Positions 14,371 to 23,619 of a DNA stretch of 64,000 nt are shown in pieces (positions within the stretch are counted from its first letter, which is position 1; each line of letters begins with the position of its first letter). The stretch comes from Bacteroidota bacterium (GTDB lineage Bacteria; Bacteroidota; Bacteroidia; 2-12-FULL-35-15). Location: NCBI GenBank assembly GCA_025963725.1, contig JAOQAE010000006.1, forward strand, positions 310,001-374,000, in the 5' to 3' direction. Below the pieces are notes generated by a model, which was not told where the DNA came from, did not search any database, and saw nothing but the letters and a program-made list of their open reading frames with translations. The position numbers and the translations under genes are program-made.

Positions 14371-14389
14371 GTCATCCCGTATGACTTGT

Positions 14390-14531
14390 AACACACCCCC
14401 GGCCCCTCTCAAGAGGGGAGCGGATCCTGCTATCCGGATAAGCTTATTCTTTAACGCTAATTCAATTAAAAACTATATTATTTTTTGTTTGCACGATCCG
14501 TTCCCCTCTTGAGAGGGGTTAGGGGTGTGTT
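14390..14531. mobile_element. 142 bp MITE-like element between korA and korB
   Basis: The left end (AACACACCCCCGGCCCCTCT through AAGAGGGGAGCGGATC) and the right end, read in reverse (AACACACCCCTAACCCCTCT through AAGAGGGGAACGGATC), form terminal inverted repeats of roughly 38 bp. Each end itself contains the inner palindrome CCCCTCTCAAGAGGGG. The AT-rich centre of about 65 bp has no reading frame. Related palindromes occur at 42460-42627 and inside kmo at 62826-62844. No transposase is present, so mobility would be in trans. Confidence 0.65.
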
Positions 14532-16808: not shown

Positions 16809-16876
16809 AAGATTTAAAAATGATTTTGAGCCACAAAAATTTGATTTCTCTGTATAAAATCCCTTATTTTGCTTCT

Positions 16877-18112
16877 ATGAACAAATTCCGGATCCTTACT
16901 GCTGCCCTGAGCTTTTTAACCACCACTGTGCTTGCAGGAGGCTTCCAGGTGAACCTTCAGGGACAAAAGCAAACGGGCATGGGCCATACCGGCACAGGGC
17001 TGCTGCTCGACAATTCAAGCATTTTCTTTAACCCCGGAGCGGTATCTTTCCTCGACTCCCTCCGCGGAATTTCACTCGGCGCAAGCTTCATCCTTCCGCG
17101 CACTACGTATTTAGAGCCTTACCCGGGCAATTATACCGCAAACATCGTAAAGCATACAGGCACGCCATTTACCGTATATGCCGTATGGAAATTCAAAAAA
17201 ACAGCTAAATGGAATGCGGGCCTCGGTATTTACACACCTTTCGGAAGCAAGGTGCAGTGGCCTGATAACTGGAAAGGGCAATTCCTGATCCGGGAGATCG
17301 ACCTGAAAACTATCTTTATCCAGCCCACGCTTTCCTTAAAGCTGAACGATAAAATAGGGATCGGTGCAGGCTTTATATACGCTACCGGCGGATTCAGCCT
17401 CCGCAAGGGAATTCCCATCCAGGATACCCTCGGCAACTACGGCGAAGGAAACCTCCATGGAAAAGCCAGCGGATACGGCTTCAATGCCGGGATCTATTTC
17501 AAGCCGAATGATAAATTATCCATCGGGATCGATTACCGCTCACAGGTGGCCGTGAAAGTAAACGGCGGAACCGCAGAGTTCAACGTGCCTTCCTCGGTGG
17601 AAAAATACTTTCCTGAAACCACTTTCTCCACGCAGCTGAATCTCCCGCAGACCATTTCCATCGGTGTCGGATATGCAGCAACATCAAAGCTGAAGCTGGC
17701 GCTCGACATCAATTACGTAGGCTGGAAATCGTACGATTCGCTGATCATCGACTTTGAAGATAACACAGATAAGCTGGCCGACATCCATTCGCCGCGCATG
17801 TACCAGAATTCCTTTATTTACCGCATCGGCGCGCAATACGATCTGAAAGAGAAATGGACGGTTCGCCTGGGCGCTTATTACGATTCAAGCCCCGTACAGG
17901 CAGGCTACTTAACGCCGGAAACCCCTGATGCCGACAAGATCGGCGTTACAGCGGGTGTGAGCTTCCATGTTACGAAAATGATCCATGTGGATGCCTCCCT
18001 CCTTTACATCGAAGGCATGAAGCGCACCGACACCAACCTCGAAACGCAATTCGGCGGAACCTTCAAATCAAAAGCGGTAGTTCCGGGGATCAGTTTGGAG
18101 TGGAATTTTTAG
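16877..18112 (+). CDS. FadL/OmpP1-type outer-membrane transporter
   Basis: The frame extends upstream to 16820, but ATG 16877 gives a clean signal peptide (NKFRILTAALSFLTTTVLAG), so the product is 411 aa. It starts GGFQVNLQGQKQTGMGHTGT, the N-terminal hatch pattern of FadL/OmpP1 porins (compare 'A.GTA..LDDASAIFFNPAG', here LLLDNSSIFFNPGAVSFLD). The rest is alternating beta strands ending ...VPGISLEWNF with a terminal aromatic residue, as in beta-barrels. These channels pass hydrophobic compounds such as long-chain fatty acids. The gene borders the cassette island on its right. Confidence 0.85.
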   Translation: MNKFRILTAALSFLTTTVLAGGFQVNLQGQKQTGMGHTGTGLLLDNSSIFFNPGAVSFLDSLRGISLGASFILPRTTYLEPYPGNYTANIVKHTGTPFTVYAVWKFKKTAKWNAGLGIYTPFGSKVQWPDNWKGQFLIREIDLKTIFIQPTLSLKLNDKIGIGAGFIYATGGFSLRKGIPIQDTLGNYGEGNLHGKASGYGFNAGIYFKPNDKLSIGIDYRSQVAVKVNGGTAEFNVPSSVEKYFPETTFSTQLNLPQTISIGVGYAATSKLKLALDINYVGWKSYDSLIIDFEDNTDKLADIHSPRMYQNSFIYRIGAQYDLKEKWTVRLGAYYDSSPVQAGYLTPETPDADKIGVTAGVSFHVTKMIHVDASLLYIEGMKRTDTNLETQFGGTFKSKAVVPGISLEWNF

Positions 18113-18329: not shown

Positions 18330-18977
18330 ATGACAGTTAAACATTTATTTCGACTTGCATTTTTAATTTGCCTTTATGGTTGTTCAGGTAATTCAGACAA
18401 CCAAGTATATATACTGAACAGGAAGGAGTTCAGGCCTGATATTGAGAATGATCCAAGACAAGGATTTAAATATCACTACTTGCAATTTGGCCTTTACATT
18501 GAAAATGGTCCAAGACGAGGAATGCCGTATGTCGATACTACCGGTGCAGAGTATAATTACAGAACTAATACCATAACAATTTGGAACGATTCAACAGTTG
18601 CAATTCAACTGGAAATTGGTTTCCCAGAGGTGGGGATGAATTTGAAAGATAGTATTAGATCTAAAACTTTTCTGTTACCCAGACACTTGACACCTAAAGA
18701 GCAACGCTTTGACAAAGGCAGAAGGTCAAAGGAATTGACAAGGTTTCTGGATTTTGAAATTGACAAACCTGTGCACTTGAGCCAAGTATTGAGGCCGAGA
18801 GAAAAATGCGTTTTGACCTTTGGCGTTCTGACCGACACAAAATATCGGGACCCAACCACTCCTTATGGCACAGAGCTTCTTACTTCACAGGAAGGCTCAT
18901 CCGCAATATCTTTAAAGCTTAAAATAAACGACACATTAACAGTTCCATGCGGACAATTTTGGTATATGAAACAATAA
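18330..18977 (+). CDS. cassette gene 1: lipoprotein of unknown function
   Basis: 215 aa beginning with a lipoprotein signal (KHLFRLAFLICLYGCSGNSD, lipobox LYGC). The mature part is soluble and mostly beta, with duplicated-looking phrases (FRPDIENDPRQGF and LYIENGPRRGMPY) and the segment NTITIWNDSTVAIQLEIGFP, which resembles a beta-sandwich. No known domain was recognised. The stop at 18975-18977 lies 8 bp before the TGCTAAC box of the first attC-like site, as expected for a cassette. Base composition is AT-richer than the neighbours outside the island, suggesting transfer. Confidence 0.7.
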   Translation: MTVKHLFRLAFLICLYGCSGNSDNQVYILNRKEFRPDIENDPRQGFKYHYLQFGLYIENGPRRGMPYVDTTGAEYNYRTNTITIWNDSTVAIQLEIGFPEVGMNLKDSIRSKTFLLPRHLTPKEQRFDKGRRSKELTRFLDFEIDKPVHLSQVLRPREKCVLTFGVLTDTKYRDPTTPYGTELLTSQEGSSAISLKLKINDTLTVPCGQFWYMKQ

Positions 18978-18984
18978 GCACAGC

Positions 18985-19032
18985 TGCTAACAGCGGTTTT
19001 GCGAATATGCTGGAAGCCGCAAACCGTTAGCT
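18985..19032 (+). repeat. attC-like site A
   Basis: TGCTAAC (18985-18991) pairs with GTTAGCT (19026-19032). Just inside, GCGGTTTTGCG pairs with CGCAAACC, leaving a few unpaired bases as in attC stems. GTTAGCT differs from the GTTRRRY core at one position. The 48 bp site lies between cassette genes 1 and 2. Confidence 0.6.
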
Positions 19033-19062
19033 GTAATAGGGCGACAGACATTACGCAGACGA

Positions 19063-19512
19063 ATGAACATTAAGGAAACGATTGAACGAATTGAGCATTT
19101 AATGTACGGACACAACTTCGAAGTGTGTCTGGGCGTTGACATTTTTAATGGAACAACCGAAGATGATTTCAGCAAAGAATTAAAGTCTAAATACCCAAAC
19201 ACAGACCCTTACAGAAGTCCGCTTAACGAATGCTCAAAGCAAGAATTTTTTGAAGACATTCAAGATAAATTCAACTATCGTGGCGACCGAGGTGCAGGGC
19301 TAAGTTTAACAAAAACAAAAGAACTTGAATTAAAGAATTTTCAAAGACAATTTTTCGACTTCATTACTCAAAATATAAATGAAAAAAGTAAATTCTATAC
19401 TTATCCTGATCCAGACGGAATCCCCGGGTATCCTGTTTTCTGGGAATACCGATTTGTAGTGTTTACAGACCAAGGAAATATCTTATTTGTTTATGGTTCT
19501 TCATCAGACTAA
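19063..19512 (+). CDS. cassette gene 2: soluble protein of unknown function
   Basis: 149 aa, no signal peptide and no membrane helix, acidic and aromatic (VDIFNGTTEDDFSKELKSKY, NYRGDRGAGLSLTKTKELEL). It ends FRFVVFTDQGN-type beta strands (YRFVVFTDQGNILFVYGSSS). No family was recognised. The ATG is 30 bp after the GTTAGCT box of site A; site B starts 36 bp after the stop. It is the only clearly cytoplasmic product in the array. Confidence 0.65.
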   Translation: MNIKETIERIEHLMYGHNFEVCLGVDIFNGTTEDDFSKELKSKYPNTDPYRSPLNECSKQEFFEDIQDKFNYRGDRGAGLSLTKTKELELKNFQRQFFDFITQNINEKSKFYTYPDPDGIPGYPVFWEYRFVVFTDQGNILFVYGSSSD

Positions 19513-19548
19513 AATTTGAATTTTACAGACCTTTGTGTGCCTTACTTC

Positions 19549-19679
19549 AGCTAACAGCCGTCTGGCGCCATTTGGGCATTACACTTCGTAAGACAAATTT
19601 TAGTAAATTTAAGATCAAGCTCCGTAATTAAAAACACAGGAAGAAACCCAAACGAGCGCCAGGCGGCAAAACGTTAGTG
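19549..19679 (+). repeat. attC-like site B
   Basis: AGCTAAC (19549-19555) opens and GTTAGTG (19673-19679) closes the site. The inner arms TCTGGCGCCATTTGGGC and CCCAAACGAGCGCCAGG are inverted copies with small bulges. The arms are almost the same as in site D, although the intervening centre differs. 131 bp, within the known attC size range. Confidence 0.65.
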
Positions 19680-19715
19680 CCAATGCGAATTGACCTTCTT
19701 GCTAAGACATAAATA

Positions 19716-20246
19716 TTGAAAAAATTAATTATCACATTTATTATTACGTTTCCAACCAGTATGTTTGGGCAGAAATCAGCCGACCTGTACCGTAACAAAC
19801 TACCGAAGACGTTCAATTATTCCGCAGACACAATAAAAGATATTTATGTACAAATTAACGTTTTGAAAGAAGATGATTCTTACGGTAACGTTGGTGCATA
19901 TGGCTTGGAGTTGGATACCACAATCAATTTGGACAAATCTCAATTAACAACTTTTATAGGTGAATTTAATAAAAACGTATACGATACTGCGTGTCTATTT
20001 TATAAACCTATGCAACAAAATACTTCCTACGTAGACTTTTATACGTTGGTGTTTGTTTCAAACAACGACATAAAAACATATTATAGAATACAAGATAATT
20101 TGTTTGTCGTAACCGCCCTATGGAAAAATGACAAGTTTGTATTAATGGTACCTGACGATGCAGACATTGAAGTTATTTATAAACTAGAGTCAAGGAATAT
20201 CCTCGAAAAATTTAACCTGGTAAGAACGAAACGCGCTGGGCACTAA
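19716..20246 (+). CDS. cassette gene 3: secreted protein of unknown function
   Basis: 176 aa starting at a TTG codon (no better in-frame ATG before the signal peptide KKLIITFIITFPTSMFGQ). The mature part has alternating strands (DIYVQINVLKEDDSYGNVGA, YVDFYTLVFVSNNDIKTYYR) and no known motif. The TAA stop (20244-20246) lies inside the CACTAAC box of site C, a hallmark of cassette genes, whose reading frame often ends in the attC. Function unknown. Confidence 0.65.
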   Translation: MKKLIITFIITFPTSMFGQKSADLYRNKLPKTFNYSADTIKDIYVQINVLKEDDSYGNVGAYGLELDTTINLDKSQLTTFIGEFNKNVYDTACLFYKPMQQNTSYVDFYTLVFVSNNDIKTYYRIQDNLFVVTALWKNDKFVLMVPDDADIEVIYKLESRNILEKFNLVRTKRAGH

Positions 20247-20412
20247 CACAGGTAGCACAATTGCGGCTTTCAAGTTCGCAAATGCAAATTTGGCTGCTTC
20301 GCGGAATTTCTGGCATTTGCTAATTTCCTTTTGTACTTTTAATCAACTTTATCGGTTTAGACAGTTTTGCTTTTCAAATCCGCAACTGATGCCTAGCCGG
20401 AAACCGTTAGCT
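20241..20412 (+). repeat. attC-like site C (long)
   Basis: CACTAAC (20241-20247) to GTTAGCT (20406-20412). The arms ATTGCGGCTTTCAAG and CTTTTCAAATCCGCAAC pair, with a further nested hairpin (GCAAATGC ... GGCATTTGC). At 172 bp it is longer than most attC sites. The stop of cassette gene 3 is within the first box. Confidence 0.55.
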
Positions 20413-20420
20413 GTAATTAA

Positions 20421-20927
20421 ATGAAACTCATACCCTTTTATAAAATAACATACAGACTCAATTTAAAGACCGAAGAGGAGCTTGAAAGACTTCTACACGA
20501 GTTTGTGAAACCCGACATTCGATCCACGAGCTTTCTTACCTTACCAAACTCCGACAAAGTATATCAAGGTCGGCTTGATACCGAAAAAAACGAATTCACT
20601 TTAATACGCAACTATGGACTTGCATACGGTTCTAATATTATTCAAGCGAAAGGAACTTATAAAAAAAACGAAATAGGATCAGAACTGACATTGACGGTAA
20701 GACCGAATTTTGTTTGGCTATTATTGCCATTAGCTATCATGACTGTTGGTTTTATCTTTGGAAACAATATTGTCGGTCCATTTATTCTATTTCTCATAAC
20801 ATATTTTTTAGTTTGCGTAATTCCCATTAACGTAACAGGACAAAGAATGACTGAGGATCTTTCTTATAAACTACGTAGACATTTATTAGGGATGACAGAC
20901 CTTGCGACAGGTATATCTAAATATTAA
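20421..20927 (+). CDS. cassette gene 4: membrane protein of unknown function
   Basis: 168 aa. The N-terminal half is soluble and cytoplasmic in look (YKITYRLNLKTEEELERLLH). The middle holds two adjacent hydrophobic helices (FVWLLLPLAIMTVGFIFG and IVGPFILFLITYFLVCVIPI), followed by a short charged tail. The ATG comes only 8 bp after the GTTAGCT core of site C. No family was recognised; the layout of soluble head plus helical hairpin suggests an inner-membrane protein. Confidence 0.7.
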   Translation: MKLIPFYKITYRLNLKTEEELERLLHEFVKPDIRSTSFLTLPNSDKVYQGRLDTEKNEFTLIRNYGLAYGSNIIQAKGTYKKNEIGSELTLTVRPNFVWLLLPLAIMTVGFIFGNNIVGPFILFLITYFLVCVIPINVTGQRMTEDLSYKLRRHLLGMTDLATGISKY

Positions 20928-20931
20928 CTAC

Positions 20932-21060
20932 TGCTAACACAGGTCTGGCGCCAATTGGGCATCTGGCTCCGGAAGACAATTATATTAACTTTGAAACCAG
21001 GCCCGCAATTAAAAATATAGTAAGAAACCCAAACGAACGCCAGGCCTGAGAAAGTTGGCA
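20932..21060 (+). repeat. attC-like site D
   Basis: TGCTAAC (20932-20938) pairs with GTTGGCA (21054-21060), i.e. TGCTAAC against TGCCAAC, so the two ends appear to change together rather than keep one fixed sequence. The inner arms GTCTGGCGCCAATTGGGC and CCCAAACGAACGCCAGGC match those of site B. 129 bp. Confidence 0.65.
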
Positions 21061-21075
21061 GTAATAAACCAAAGA

Positions 21076-21633
21076 ATGACACGAATACTGATTATCATCT
21101 TTACTTTTATTAATATATATTCTTTCGGACAGACCGACCCCTTAAATCAACTTGATGAAAAAAAGGAAAAGGATGGTTATTGGGTTCAATATCTTGACAG
21201 TTTACTTTATCCAATAGATAGCGCTAATGCTTATTTCTATGGTTACGACTTATACGACCACGGACTCCAAGTGTTTAAATTTTCTAATCGTCCTAAATCA
21301 TGGAAAAAGGACAAAATGATTTTCGAGGGCCGACTACCTGAGAAAGGGAAACCAAGCCCTGTTGAAGGCACATTTAAGTTTTACTGGCCTGAAATGAGAC
21401 TTGAAAGTGAAGAAATATATAAAGGCGGAAAGCCTTTATATATGAAATCATTTGTCTACAACAGGCGAGATCAGGTAAACGCGGCATTTAATGAAGTACT
21501 CTATTTTGACAAACTCTATAATAATATTCCCGGAACCTTTTATTACGAAGAATACTGGCACGGAAAACTTTCAAAGAAGTATTGGTTTAGAAAAGGAAGA
21601 AAAAAGTGGGAAAGCATTAGGATAAGAGAATAG
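21076..21633 (+). CDS. cassette gene 5: secreted MORN/YwqK-like protein (tentative)
   Basis: The frame opens at a TTG within site D, but ATG 21076 gives a signal peptide (TRILIIIFTFINIYSFGQ), so 185 aa. The mature part has repeating Gly/Tyr-rich strands (KKEKDGYWVQYLDSLLYP, GTFKFYWPEMRLESEEIYKG, PGTFYYEEYWHGKLSKKYWF) that recall the MORN-type sheets of YwqK-like proteins. This is a shape resemblance, not a firm family match. It is followed 10 bp later by a decayed attC-like site. Confidence 0.6.
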   Translation: MTRILIIIFTFINIYSFGQTDPLNQLDEKKEKDGYWVQYLDSLLYPIDSANAYFYGYDLYDHGLQVFKFSNRPKSWKKDKMIFEGRLPEKGKPSPVEGTFKFYWPEMRLESEEIYKGGKPLYMKSFVYNRRDQVNAAFNEVLYFDKLYNNIPGTFYYEEYWHGKLSKKYWFRKGRKKWESIRIRE

Positions 21634-21643
21634 TAATTGCTAC

Positions 21644-21700
21644 TGCTAACCGCGCACTGAGCAATCGACTGTGCCTGGCCCGAAGAAACATTTGACGTAA
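21644..21700 (+). repeat. attC-like site E (degenerate)
   Basis: TGCTAAC (21644-21650) is intact, but the right end reads TTTGACGTAAT instead of GTTAG. Only a short GCGCAC...GTGC pairing is left inside. Likely a decayed site, so cassettes 5 and 6 may be fixed together. Confidence 0.4.
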
Positions 21701-21717
21701 TATATTTTAAGCCCGAT

Positions 21718-22125
21718 ATGCAAAAATTAATTTTCCTTCTGACACTTGGCTTCCTGACATTGAGTTGCGGCGAGACAGACACAAAGCCAGGCGATAATGA
21801 GGCTCCCGCCTCGACGAATGATCTTCGAGACAAAAAAGTAAATTGGTATGAAGAACTGATGATAAATTACATCAGCAAATCCGACAACGAATTAATTAAG
21901 TTATCCCGTAAAAATCCCGCAATCAAAATTGAATGGCTACTCGACAGAGTTGAGAATACAGACACAGCAAAATATCTCATCTTCCATATTGGACATGACG
22001 TAACCGACGATGCCAATACCAACATGCGATTTGTGACAGATGGCTGGGTTTACATAGACAGCCTGACACGAAAACTTTATGAATATGATGTTGCAAATGA
22101 TAGTTTAATGGAATGGAGAAGATGA
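21718..22125 (+). CDS. cassette gene 6: lipoprotein of unknown function
   Basis: 135 aa with a lipoprotein signal (QKLIFLLTLGFLTLSCGETD, lipobox TLSC) and a Pro/Glu linker. The small domain that follows has an internal GHDVTDDANTNMRFVTDGWV segment and ends LYEYDVANDSLMEWRR. No family was recognised. Start ATG 21718 is 17 bp after degenerate site E. A CGCTAAC box lies 8 bp beyond the stop. Confidence 0.65.
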   Translation: MQKLIFLLTLGFLTLSCGETDTKPGDNEAPASTNDLRDKKVNWYEELMINYISKSDNELIKLSRKNPAIKIEWLLDRVENTDTAKYLIFHIGHDVTDDANTNMRFVTDGWVYIDSLTRKLYEYDVANDSLMEWRR

Positions 22126-22132
22126 ATACCAC

Positions 22133-22200
22133 CGCTAACAGAGTCTGAGAGATTGAGATTAAAACAAATACTTAACCAGCCCAGCTGCTAACAGCTGTAA
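22133..22200 (+). repeat. attC-like remnant F and array boundary
   Basis: CGCTAAC at 22133-22139 is followed by non-pairing sequence. Then CAGCTGCTAACAGCTGTAAA (from 22182) fuses the left end of a site like A (CAGCTGCTAAC) with what looks like the right end (AGCTGTAAT) of sites A and C. This looks like the scar of an excised or deleted cassette. Confidence 0.4.
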
Positions 22201-22302: not shown

Positions 22303-23619
22303 ATGAAAAAAATTTACACAGCCATTACAGCGGTCGCTTTATTATTAAGCGCTGCAACAGCCAATGCCCAATGCCCGGGCGAGCGCTATCATAACTTCGT
22401 TTTCCCCGGACACACACTTACTTCGGGAGTTCAGTACGGAAGTAACTTAAAAACAAATTATGCCGGGGTTGGCACCATGCAAAACCTGCTCATGGACATT
22501 TACCAGCCTACAGGCGATACGATGAGCAACCGTCCGCTGGTGATCGTTGCCCATGGCGGAAGCTTTATCGGCGGAAGCAAAACAGGCACCGATGTGGTGC
22601 AGCTTTGTAAAGACCTTGCCAAGCTGGGCTATGTAGCCGTTTCCATTGATTACCGCCTCGGGATGACCAACTTCCCGTTCAGCTCTACACATACCGTGGA
22701 TTCAACGGATGCAGGCGCTGCCGTAATGCGCGCCGTGCACGATGGCCGCGCGGCTGTGCGCTATTTCCGCAAGAACGCTGCTGTGGGAGGCAACACGTAT
22801 AAGATCGATCCGAACAATATATTCTTCGCAGGCGTTTCAGCAGGTGGATTTATTGCCGTTCACGTGGCATACATGGATCAGCTGTCGGAATTCCCAAGCT
22901 ATGTTGATACAACAGGACAACCCGGCCTACACGGCGGAATTGAAGGCGAAAGCGGGAACCCGGGATATTCATCCGATGTAAAAGCGGTAGTGAACGTTTG
23001 TGGCGCACTCGGCGATGTGAACTGGATGCAGCCGGGAGATGAGCCGATCATCAGCTTCCACGGCACTAACGATAACACTGTTCCATACGGCTCAGCAACC
23101 ATTTACCTTTCCGGAACTTATCCTTTACTGGTTGTAGACGGGAGCTCCACTATTGCAGCAAAGGCGGATGCGCTTGGCATTGAAAATTGCTTTGAAACAT
23201 GGGAAGGACAGGATCACGTGCCGGAAGTAGGCACCAGCGCCAACGCCCTTGCTCATTATGATTCTATGCTTGTTATGACGCGCAGCTTCCTGCAGCGCCA
23301 GGTATGCGGAACGCCGCTTGTTTGCGGCTATAACGGAGCATTGTACTCTGTAGTTGGCATCTCGGAAAATACGATCGGACAATGCCTGAACGTATATCCT
23401 AATCCTTCCGAAGGCACTTTCACCATCGACCTTTCAGCTTTCAAAGGCGCGGAAGTTCAGATCGACCTGTATGATGTGCTTGGCCAAAATGTAAAGAGCA
23501 TCAGGAGCGTTAAAGATGACCGCCTGAGCGTTGCAAGTGAGGGCCTGAAAAGCGGACTCTATACCTTAACCGTTACAAGCAACGGAAAGCAGTTCAGCAG
23601 AAAGCTGACACTTAAATAA
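22303..23619 (+). CDS. T9SS-secreted alpha/beta-hydrolase (esterase)
   Basis: 438 aa. A signal peptide (KKIYTAITAVALLLSAATAN) is followed by an alpha/beta-hydrolase of the carboxylesterase/BD-FAE type. The oxyanion-hole segment is VIVAHGGSFIGGSK, the nucleophile elbow is FFAGVSAGGFIAVH (G-x-S-x-G, Ser catalytic), and candidate acid and His lie in SFHGTNDNTVPY and WEGQDHVPEVG. The last 80 residues are a T9SS type-A sorting domain (LNVYPNPSEGTFTIDLSAF ... GLYTLTVTSNGKQFSRKLTL). The enzyme is therefore probably released or anchored at the cell surface. It is single, flanked on the left by the cassette island and on the right by a strong terminator. Confidence 0.9.
   Translation: MKKIYTAITAVALLLSAATANAQCPGERYHNFVFPGHTLTSGVQYGSNLKTNYAGVGTMQNLLMDIYQPTGDTMSNRPLVIVAHGGSFIGGSKTGTDVVQLCKDLAKLGYVAVSIDYRLGMTNFPFSSTHTVDSTDAGAAVMRAVHDGRAAVRYFRKNAAVGGNTYKIDPNNIFFAGVSAGGFIAVHVAYMDQLSEFPSYVDTTGQPGLHGGIEGESGNPGYSSDVKAVVNVCGALGDVNWMQPGDEPIISFHGTNDNTVPYGSATIYLSGTYPLLVVDGSSTIAAKADALGIENCFETWEGQDHVPEVGTSANALAHYDSMLVMTRSFLQRQVCGTPLVCGYNGALYSVVGISENTIGQCLNVYPNPSEGTFTIDLSAFKGAEVQIDLYDVLGQNVKSIRSVKDDRLSVASEGLKSGLYTLTVTSNGKQFSRKLTLK

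Follow-up and report, generated by a model that had tools for sequence, protein, structure and literature searches.

A partly decayed cassette array in a Bacteroidota genome probably stems from an integron lineage with its own tyrosine recombinase

Integrons are gene-capture systems that spread antibiotic resistance. Can six short genes in a Bacteroidota genome that lacks an integron integrase belong to such a system, and if so, to which kind? The genes lie at 18330-22200 of the DNA stretch analyzed here (the window; 64 kb, G000:C6:310001-374000), which comes from a genome of 4.79 Mb in 7 contigs that is 97.9% complete. An earlier note, made from the letters of the window alone, had read them as an integron-like cassette array moved by an integron-type recombinase, comparable to a cluster of attC sites lacking an integron integrase (CALIN). 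Our analysis indicates that the array very probably consists of six integron cassettes, partly decayed, that sit between two core genes and derive from a Bacteroidota integron lineage with its own tyrosine recombinase, not IntI.

The listing of open reading frames (ORFs) places six ORFs, all in one orientation, at 18330-22125. As the earlier note had observed, this DNA is AT-richer than its neighborhood, with a GC content of 37.4% for the array and 47.8% across the 64-kb window. TAAC left boxes follow the genes at 18988, 19552, 20244, 20935, 21647, and 22136, with a seventh at 22189, and GTTA or GTTG right boxes stand at 19026, 19673, 20406, and 21054, with gene starts 15 to 43 bp downstream. 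To avoid circularity, a covariance model of the site (R1) was trained exclusively on 30 sites found in other members of the genus. On the window, R1 gave exactly four matches, all in the array and on the forward strand, and the earlier observation is confirmed. These attC-like sites are site 1 (18986-19031, short; match 18988-19029, E 4.4e-5), site 2 (19550-19678, 125 nt; match 19552-19676, E 3.5e-24), site 3 (20242-20411, with a long loop; match 20244-20409, E 2.9e-5), and site 4 (20933-21060; match 20935-21057, E 3.1e-17); the next best match had an E value of 2.4. The model matches sites in 33 of the 36 genomes of the genus. A search of the array against Rfam at E 1 returned no match. Relatives of site 2 were found at several other places in the source genome and in 12 of the 59 relatives searched, often in runs approximately 1 to 2 kb apart.

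The sites share a structure that is supported by comparison. In the 30-site alignment, the proposed stems are paired in 85.9% of cells, compared with 66.6% for shuffled sequences and 25 to 46% when one arm was slid, and the L stem has both-sided changes at 11 of its 12 pairs. The spacer between the R and L stems is asymmetric, with 1 nt in the left arm and 5 nt in the right arm (4 nt in two sites). The 12-bp L stem has no one-sided bulge in 29 of the 30 sites; a 2-nt/3-nt internal loop lies beyond it and might be equivalent to extra-helical bases. Site lengths range from approximately 42 to 185 nt, and one orientation is kept throughout an array. Folding of single sites, a check that the earlier note had proposed, is a weak test on its own, and the comparative tests carry the case; it supported sites 1, 2, and 4 (z scores of −2.0, −3.9, and −2.1) and gave little or nothing for the others. 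The departure of the box cores from the GTTRRRY consensus, which had also been noted, is general in the genus, where only 4 of 52 boxes on either side fit the canonical heptamers GTTRRRY (right) and RYYYAAC (left).

Suppose that a unit consists of a start, a gene, a left box, and arms and that exchange at the right box inserts it. Each left box is then expected to be complementary to the beginning of the cassette to which it belongs, and not to the letters behind the site, which are part of the next cassette. Across 23 neighboring pairs, left boxes paired with their own start at 4.96 of 6 letters, compared with 2.61 of 6 for the following box, and none of 20,000 permutations reached the observed sum. 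Across 35 cassettes of the genus, the corresponding values were 4.8 and 2.43 of 6 (observed sum, 168; permutation maximum, 104). Pairing of this kind is, at the level of sequence, a signature of integron-style insertion. Within the window, the starts of cassettes 2 (19026-19672, start GTTAGCTGTAATAGG), 3 (19673-20405, start GTTAGTGCCAATGCG), 4 (20406-21053, start GTTAGCTGTAATTAA), and 5 (21054-21700, start GTTGGCAGTAATAAA, right end approximate) match their own left boxes at 19552, 20244, 20935, and 21647 at 7, 5, 8, and 7 of 9 letters, respectively. For cassette 3, exact pairing of its initial nine letters with the left box at 20244 was also recorded.

The pairing forms a terminal inverted repeat that spans 15 letters and then falls to chance level, with a fixed mismatch at letter 11. 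In line with this, letter 11 matches in 0 of 61 cassettes from other Bacteroidota loci, where chance level is reached from letter 16 (the reversed-sequence control yielded 2 cassettes). Positions scored by the finder are selected, while letters 10, 11, and 16 to 20 are unselected. Letter 4 travels with the cassette in all 24 informative cases, a count partly conditioned by the finder, and as judged from these boundaries, the exchange zone lies at or before the GTT.

The genes that flank the array are a FadL/OmpP1-like outer-membrane protein gene on the left (16820-18112) and a gene for a hydrolase with a C-terminal sorting domain on the right (22303-23619), both on the forward strand and neither part of a cassette. 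In 15 of 15 same-genus relatives, the two are adjacent, separated by no more than about 560 bp of cassette-free DNA; the gap in the source genome measures 4.19 kb. Because the flanking genes are direct neighbors in all of these relatives, the comparison identifies the array as an insertion. The outcomes that the earlier note had named as contrary to its proposal, such as an identical gene order in relatives, were not found. Further sites, for which that note had suggested a search, include those of a second decaying cassette array on contig C7 of the same genome (L032:4340-6700). Here, L032:4487-5202 is a paralogue of the window gene at 18330, with 64 to 74% identity; it is split by a frameshift and has kept its boundary, GTTAGCAGCAATGC, which fits the right-end box of cassette 1 at 8 of 9 scored letters. 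Elsewhere on C7 (L031, G000:C7:998500-1018000), an insertion of approximately 11 kb interrupts another member of this site family at C7:1002924, whose other half is at C7:1013908; the insertion has inverted-repeat-like ends (GGCACCTATCCACTTTAG... and ...GTGGAGAGGTACC) and a transposase-like gene at L031:12496-13431.

Which recombinase could have moved such cassettes? In the relative G009, the gene for a 375-aa tyrosine recombinase is immediately followed by an array of four sites on the same strand, and the same arrangement is found in G003, G025, G010, G007, and G026. The recombinase gene is divergent from the array in G033 and G002, and in several other relatives the contig ends within 1.5 kb behind it. 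The first cassette starts 90, 100, 102, 102, and 103 bp past the recombinase stop codon in five of the six loci and 204 bp past it in G007; it matches the first left box at 11 to 14 of 15 letters, and in most of the six loci it is preceded by an ATATAA-type sequence. These relatives thus display an attI-like point approximately 100 bp behind the recombinase gene, as located by sequence comparison, which is without a counterpart in the window. Together with the register test, the empty site, and the second copy of cassette 1, these complete loci of recombinase, attI-like point, and cassettes uphold the earlier proposal that an integron-type recombinase moved the array.

The recombinase family extends to Algoriphagus, Flavobacterium, Cyclobacterium, Algibacter, Winogradskyella, and others. 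We compared 49 loci in which the sequence extends at least 700 bp past the recombinase gene. Cassette chains follow the recombinase in 21 of them, with the first start most often 78 to 178 bp behind the stop codon; one chain was found upstream and none in the control. The chain finder was controlled with reversed sequence only, since palindromic sites can be read on either strand and the mirror strand is therefore not an independent control. The arrangement is confirmed by most of ten long contigs from other Bacteroidia; two long contigs (L237 and L239) have no convincing cassette chain. At E ≤ 1e-85, the family is present in 145 of 295 sampled Bacteroidia genomes and in 89 of 155 genera. At least 14 of the minus-strand hits among these genomes begin 90 to 245 bp into a contig, which would be expected if assemblies are interrupted at repeated sites. 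The recombinase hits of G025 and G031 (L103 and L106) were flagged with one in-frame stop, which may lie at the end of the match; the main frame still encodes a long protein.

The linked recombinase has Vibrio IntI4 (2A3V) as its best structural match and scores 231.6 with NF040815 (cut-off, 220); with TIGR02249, the representative P0001 scores 216, compared with a cut-off of 265. The alignment to VchIntI4 is broken at IntI4 residues 179-242 (query 273-293), whereas XerA and XerD align through, and approximately 42 IntI residues around the extra domain (I2, near patch III) are missing. Between the KGxKDR and RHSxAT motifs, four IntI-clade proteins have 103 residues, compared with 60 to 66 in the Bacteroidota integrases. 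In a tree built by a quick method, the Bacteroidota integrases are separate from IntI (support of 97 and 100). Because it has no IntI insert and carries an N-terminal extension, the linked recombinase is, on its sequence, not an IntI. The I2 domain of IntI, of 20 residues, is said to accommodate extra-helical bases and not to be found elsewhere (PMC4792948), and archaeal integrons were recognized partly through it (PMC9668308). The absence of a one-sided L-stem bulge from the sites would fit the absence of I2, although the 2-nt/3-nt internal loop leaves room for doubt.

The N-terminal extension comprises approximately 85 aa in one to three copies and, predicted alone, reaches a pLDDT confidence of 91. 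The top Foldseek match of the predicted structure is the SMARCAL1 HARP domain (4O66), with a weak E value of 0.041, and XPB bound to forked DNA was also matched. The Pfam HARP family (PF07443) matches 2 of 18 members (best E, 0.0011). With VIA-align, eIF1 and XPB folds were found at a Z of about 6, with an eIF1-like fold preferred and HARP not among the best. Our guess is that the extension reads the junction of the folded strand. Array-linked recombinases at L107, L108, L109, L115, L155, and L153 include some with two or three N-terminal modules (about 550 aa); those at L155 and L153 are approximately 700 aa long and seemingly have an extra recombinase-like domain.

Could the cassettes still be those of an ordinary IntI integron, with intI lost or residing in another genome? 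The cassette anatomy and register are integron-like, attC sites are very diverse, and an IntI above the TIGR02249 cut-off does exist in the class, in 1 of 395 genomes (G173). However, no IntI was found at E ≤ 1e-45 in the same-genus genomes among the 395 searched, a different recombinase directly precedes cassettes in many genera, the canonical heptamers fit so few boxes, and the true IntIs form a separate clade with full branch support (Shimodaira-Hasegawa-like approximate likelihood-ratio test [SH-aLRT], 100). We regard this explanation as improbable. The array resembles a CALIN in being a cassette cluster without an integrase. CALINs are delimited by two or more attC sites less than 4 kb apart, called by the standard attC model, with no integrase nearby; here, four sites called by R1 lie within 2.1 kb, in a genome without an integrase. 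The resemblance does not extend to the lineage, since the associated recombinase lacks the IntI insert and has the N-terminal extension. The cluster is instead a CALIN-like relic of a different integron lineage and not of a classical integron.

A second possibility is that the host XerC/XerD recombinases mobilize the cassettes as pdif-like modules. The earlier note had seen no integrase near the array, and a search of the genome gave just two tyrosine recombinases, both Xer-like, so that the cassette-linked family is absent from the source genome as assembled, and with TIGR02249 the same two proteins match below the cut-off and no IntI was detected. That these are the sole tyrosine recombinases of the genome speaks for XerC/XerD. 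However, pdif modules have 28-bp dif sites that alternate in orientation, whereas the sites here are hairpins of approximately 42 to 185 nt in which the L stem varies and there is a single point of exchange, and the arrays in relatives are tied to another recombinase, which makes this a very slim chance. It is slimmer still that the units are gene-plus-palindrome elements moved by another single-strand system, such as an IS200/IS605-like Y1 transposase. Such a system would likewise use folded single strands, and the sites are dispersed in the genome; however, the boundary mosaic puts the exchange at GTT inside a site with two arms, and the enzyme linked to the arrays belongs to the tyrosine recombinases, with IntI4 as its best structural match. 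Least credible is an immobile operon-like region with hairpin terminators or repetitive extragenic palindromic (REP)-type palindromes: the genes are co-oriented, hairpins stand behind their stop codons, and single sites fold just moderately better than shuffles, but a terminator would not be complementary to the distant end of the gene before it, and this reading is contradicted by the register test, by the adjacent flanks in 15 of 15 relatives, and by the fixed distance from recombinase to first cassette.

Returning to a Bacteroidota integron lineage with its own recombinase, a mechanism can be proposed that builds on the unit structure, the end repeat, the attI-like point, the linked recombinase, and the empty site, all of them read from sequence. 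A cassette unit starts with GTTR and approximately 11 further letters, continues with one gene, its left box, and the hairpin arms, and closes with a G. By analogy with known integrons, it would be excised as a circle, recognized as a folded strand, and resolved in an integron-like manner. In the circle, the ends with the 15-letter repeat, mismatched at letter 11, would pair into an extended R stem beside the 12-bp L stem, separated by the 1-nt/5-nt spacer, and a pair of recombinase molecules would bind the folded single strand. Joining at GTT would then place the cassette at the attI-like point, approximately 100 bp past the recombinase gene, or at a different site, and the reverse reaction would excise cassettes. 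Since the source genome lacks the recombinase, its cluster would have arisen in trans, away from attI, through an integrase that has since been lost or that resides on another element, and would then have decayed; alternatively, it could have arrived by block transfer.

Several points weigh against this interpretation. Recombination is deduced and none was observed, and what links the recombinase with the sites is their position alone. The scanners were custom-written, the 12-of-13 threshold conditions the letter counts at scored positions, and the genomes and loci of the register test were chosen by their match to window site 2 or to the recombinase. No cassettes were detectable near the recombinase in 28 of the 49 loci, many of which are on short contigs or come from relatives outside Bacteroidota. 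The window cluster itself has neither attI nor recombinase and has lost its left boundary, and at 97.9% completeness of the genome, a recombinase could have been missed.

In agreement with the earlier description of the products as unknown proteins, Pfam gave no family for any of the six cassette proteins (one weak DUF7893 match was disregarded), and homologues of window genes 2 to 6 were not found among the loci compared. The cassette 1 ORF (18330-18977) encodes a lipoprotein-like protein of 215 aa, and the left boundary of this cassette is lost. Cassette 2 carries an ORF at 19063-19512 (149 aa), and the ORF of cassette 3 occupies 19716-20246, with a TTG start and a stop codon within the left box. 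The ORF of cassette 4 (20421-20927, 168 aa) has a hydrophobic stretch in mid-protein, cassette 5 carries an ORF at 21079-21633, and the cassette 6 ORF (21718-22125) encodes another lipoprotein-like protein, of 135 aa. Behind genes 5 and 6, the sites are decayed, with their right halves gone: site 5 (21645-21700) retains its left box and has no R1 match, and the left boxes at 22136 and 22189, the latter standing alone, are remnants of one or two sites at the right end of the cluster (22134-22200), for a total of two or three decayed sites. All of these features are on the forward strand. Upstream of the hydrolase gene at 22303, comparison of the intergenic sequences revealed a promoter-like TTTTTC...TATCTTT common to the window and G009. 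A long palindrome with CCCCTCTCAAGAGGGG-type arms at 14389-14521, between two ferredoxin-oxidoreductase genes, is not of the cassette-site type and is probably a dispersed repeat.

How does this system compare with those already described? With IntI integrons (class 1 and the sedentary Vibrio integrons), it shares an integrase gene, an attI-like point, tandem one-gene cassettes, a two-armed hairpin site, GTT exchange, and an R'' box in each site that matches the start of its own cassette; the sites are likewise palindromic and comprise an R stem and an L stem separated by an unpaired spacer, as the covariation in 30 sites indicates. It differs in the shortened segment between the KGxKDR and RHSxAT motifs and the added N-terminal modules of its integrase, and its sites differ from IntI attC sites in their noncanonical boxes, the 15-letter end repeat with a fixed mismatch, and the lack of a one-sided bulge within the 12-bp L stem. 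Judged by sequence, then, the system works like an integron yet fails two tested defining features of IntI integrons, the insert and the canonical boxes. Like CALINs (PMC9024848), the window cluster lacks an integrase, but its site type is that of a non-IntI lineage. In Treponema integrons, the integrase is also transcribed towards attI and the cassettes, but those integrases are described as IntI (PMC3607928), and here G033 and G002 show a divergent arrangement as well. A survey of tyrosine recombinases notes that conservation of the IntI insert is incomplete within its integron-like subgroup, and the passages considered here describe no cassette arrays or sites for insert-less members (PMC8138268). 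NCBI NF040815 already labels such proteins "site-specific tyrosine recombinase/integron integrase," by homology. A recombinase of the same type (48% identity), with cassettes behind it, is carried by plasmid NZ_CP041688.1 (L244) of Chryseobacterium sp. SNU WT5; this example differs in being plasmid-borne and is annotated by homology alone. Its host came from rainbow trout, and its array holds several cassettes, an IS110 element, and a group II intron. The Chryseobacterium oryzae plasmid NZ_CP094530.1 has a related recombinase and no clear cassette chain.

Integrons have been held to be rare in Bacteroidota, and they are taken to require the I2 insert of IntI. The single complete integron that IntegronFinder 2.0 reported for Bacteroidetes is that of Salinibacter ruber M1 (PMC9024848), and lists of integron-bearing phyla name Bacteroidota without detail (PMC8618304). 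No description of these sites, arrays, or system was found in the literature covered, which lies outside bioRxiv and other preprints and most subscription journals, and the system is widespread in Bacteroidota and apparently unrecognized. Collectively, these findings make it likely that Bacteroidota have an ancient integron system of their own, a non-IntI lineage without the domain held to be required at folded attC sites and with an extra DNA-binding-like, possibly HARP-like, N-terminal domain, which captures genes in up to approximately half of Bacteroidia and whose clusters spill into integrase-less genomes. The noncanonical sites and recombinase suggest a reason why standard integron searches would miss it. 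If this is true, capture of cassettes through folded sites does not need I2, the role of which becomes directly testable, and one of the commonest bacterial phyla would hold a large reservoir of mobile genes, in at least one case on a plasmid.

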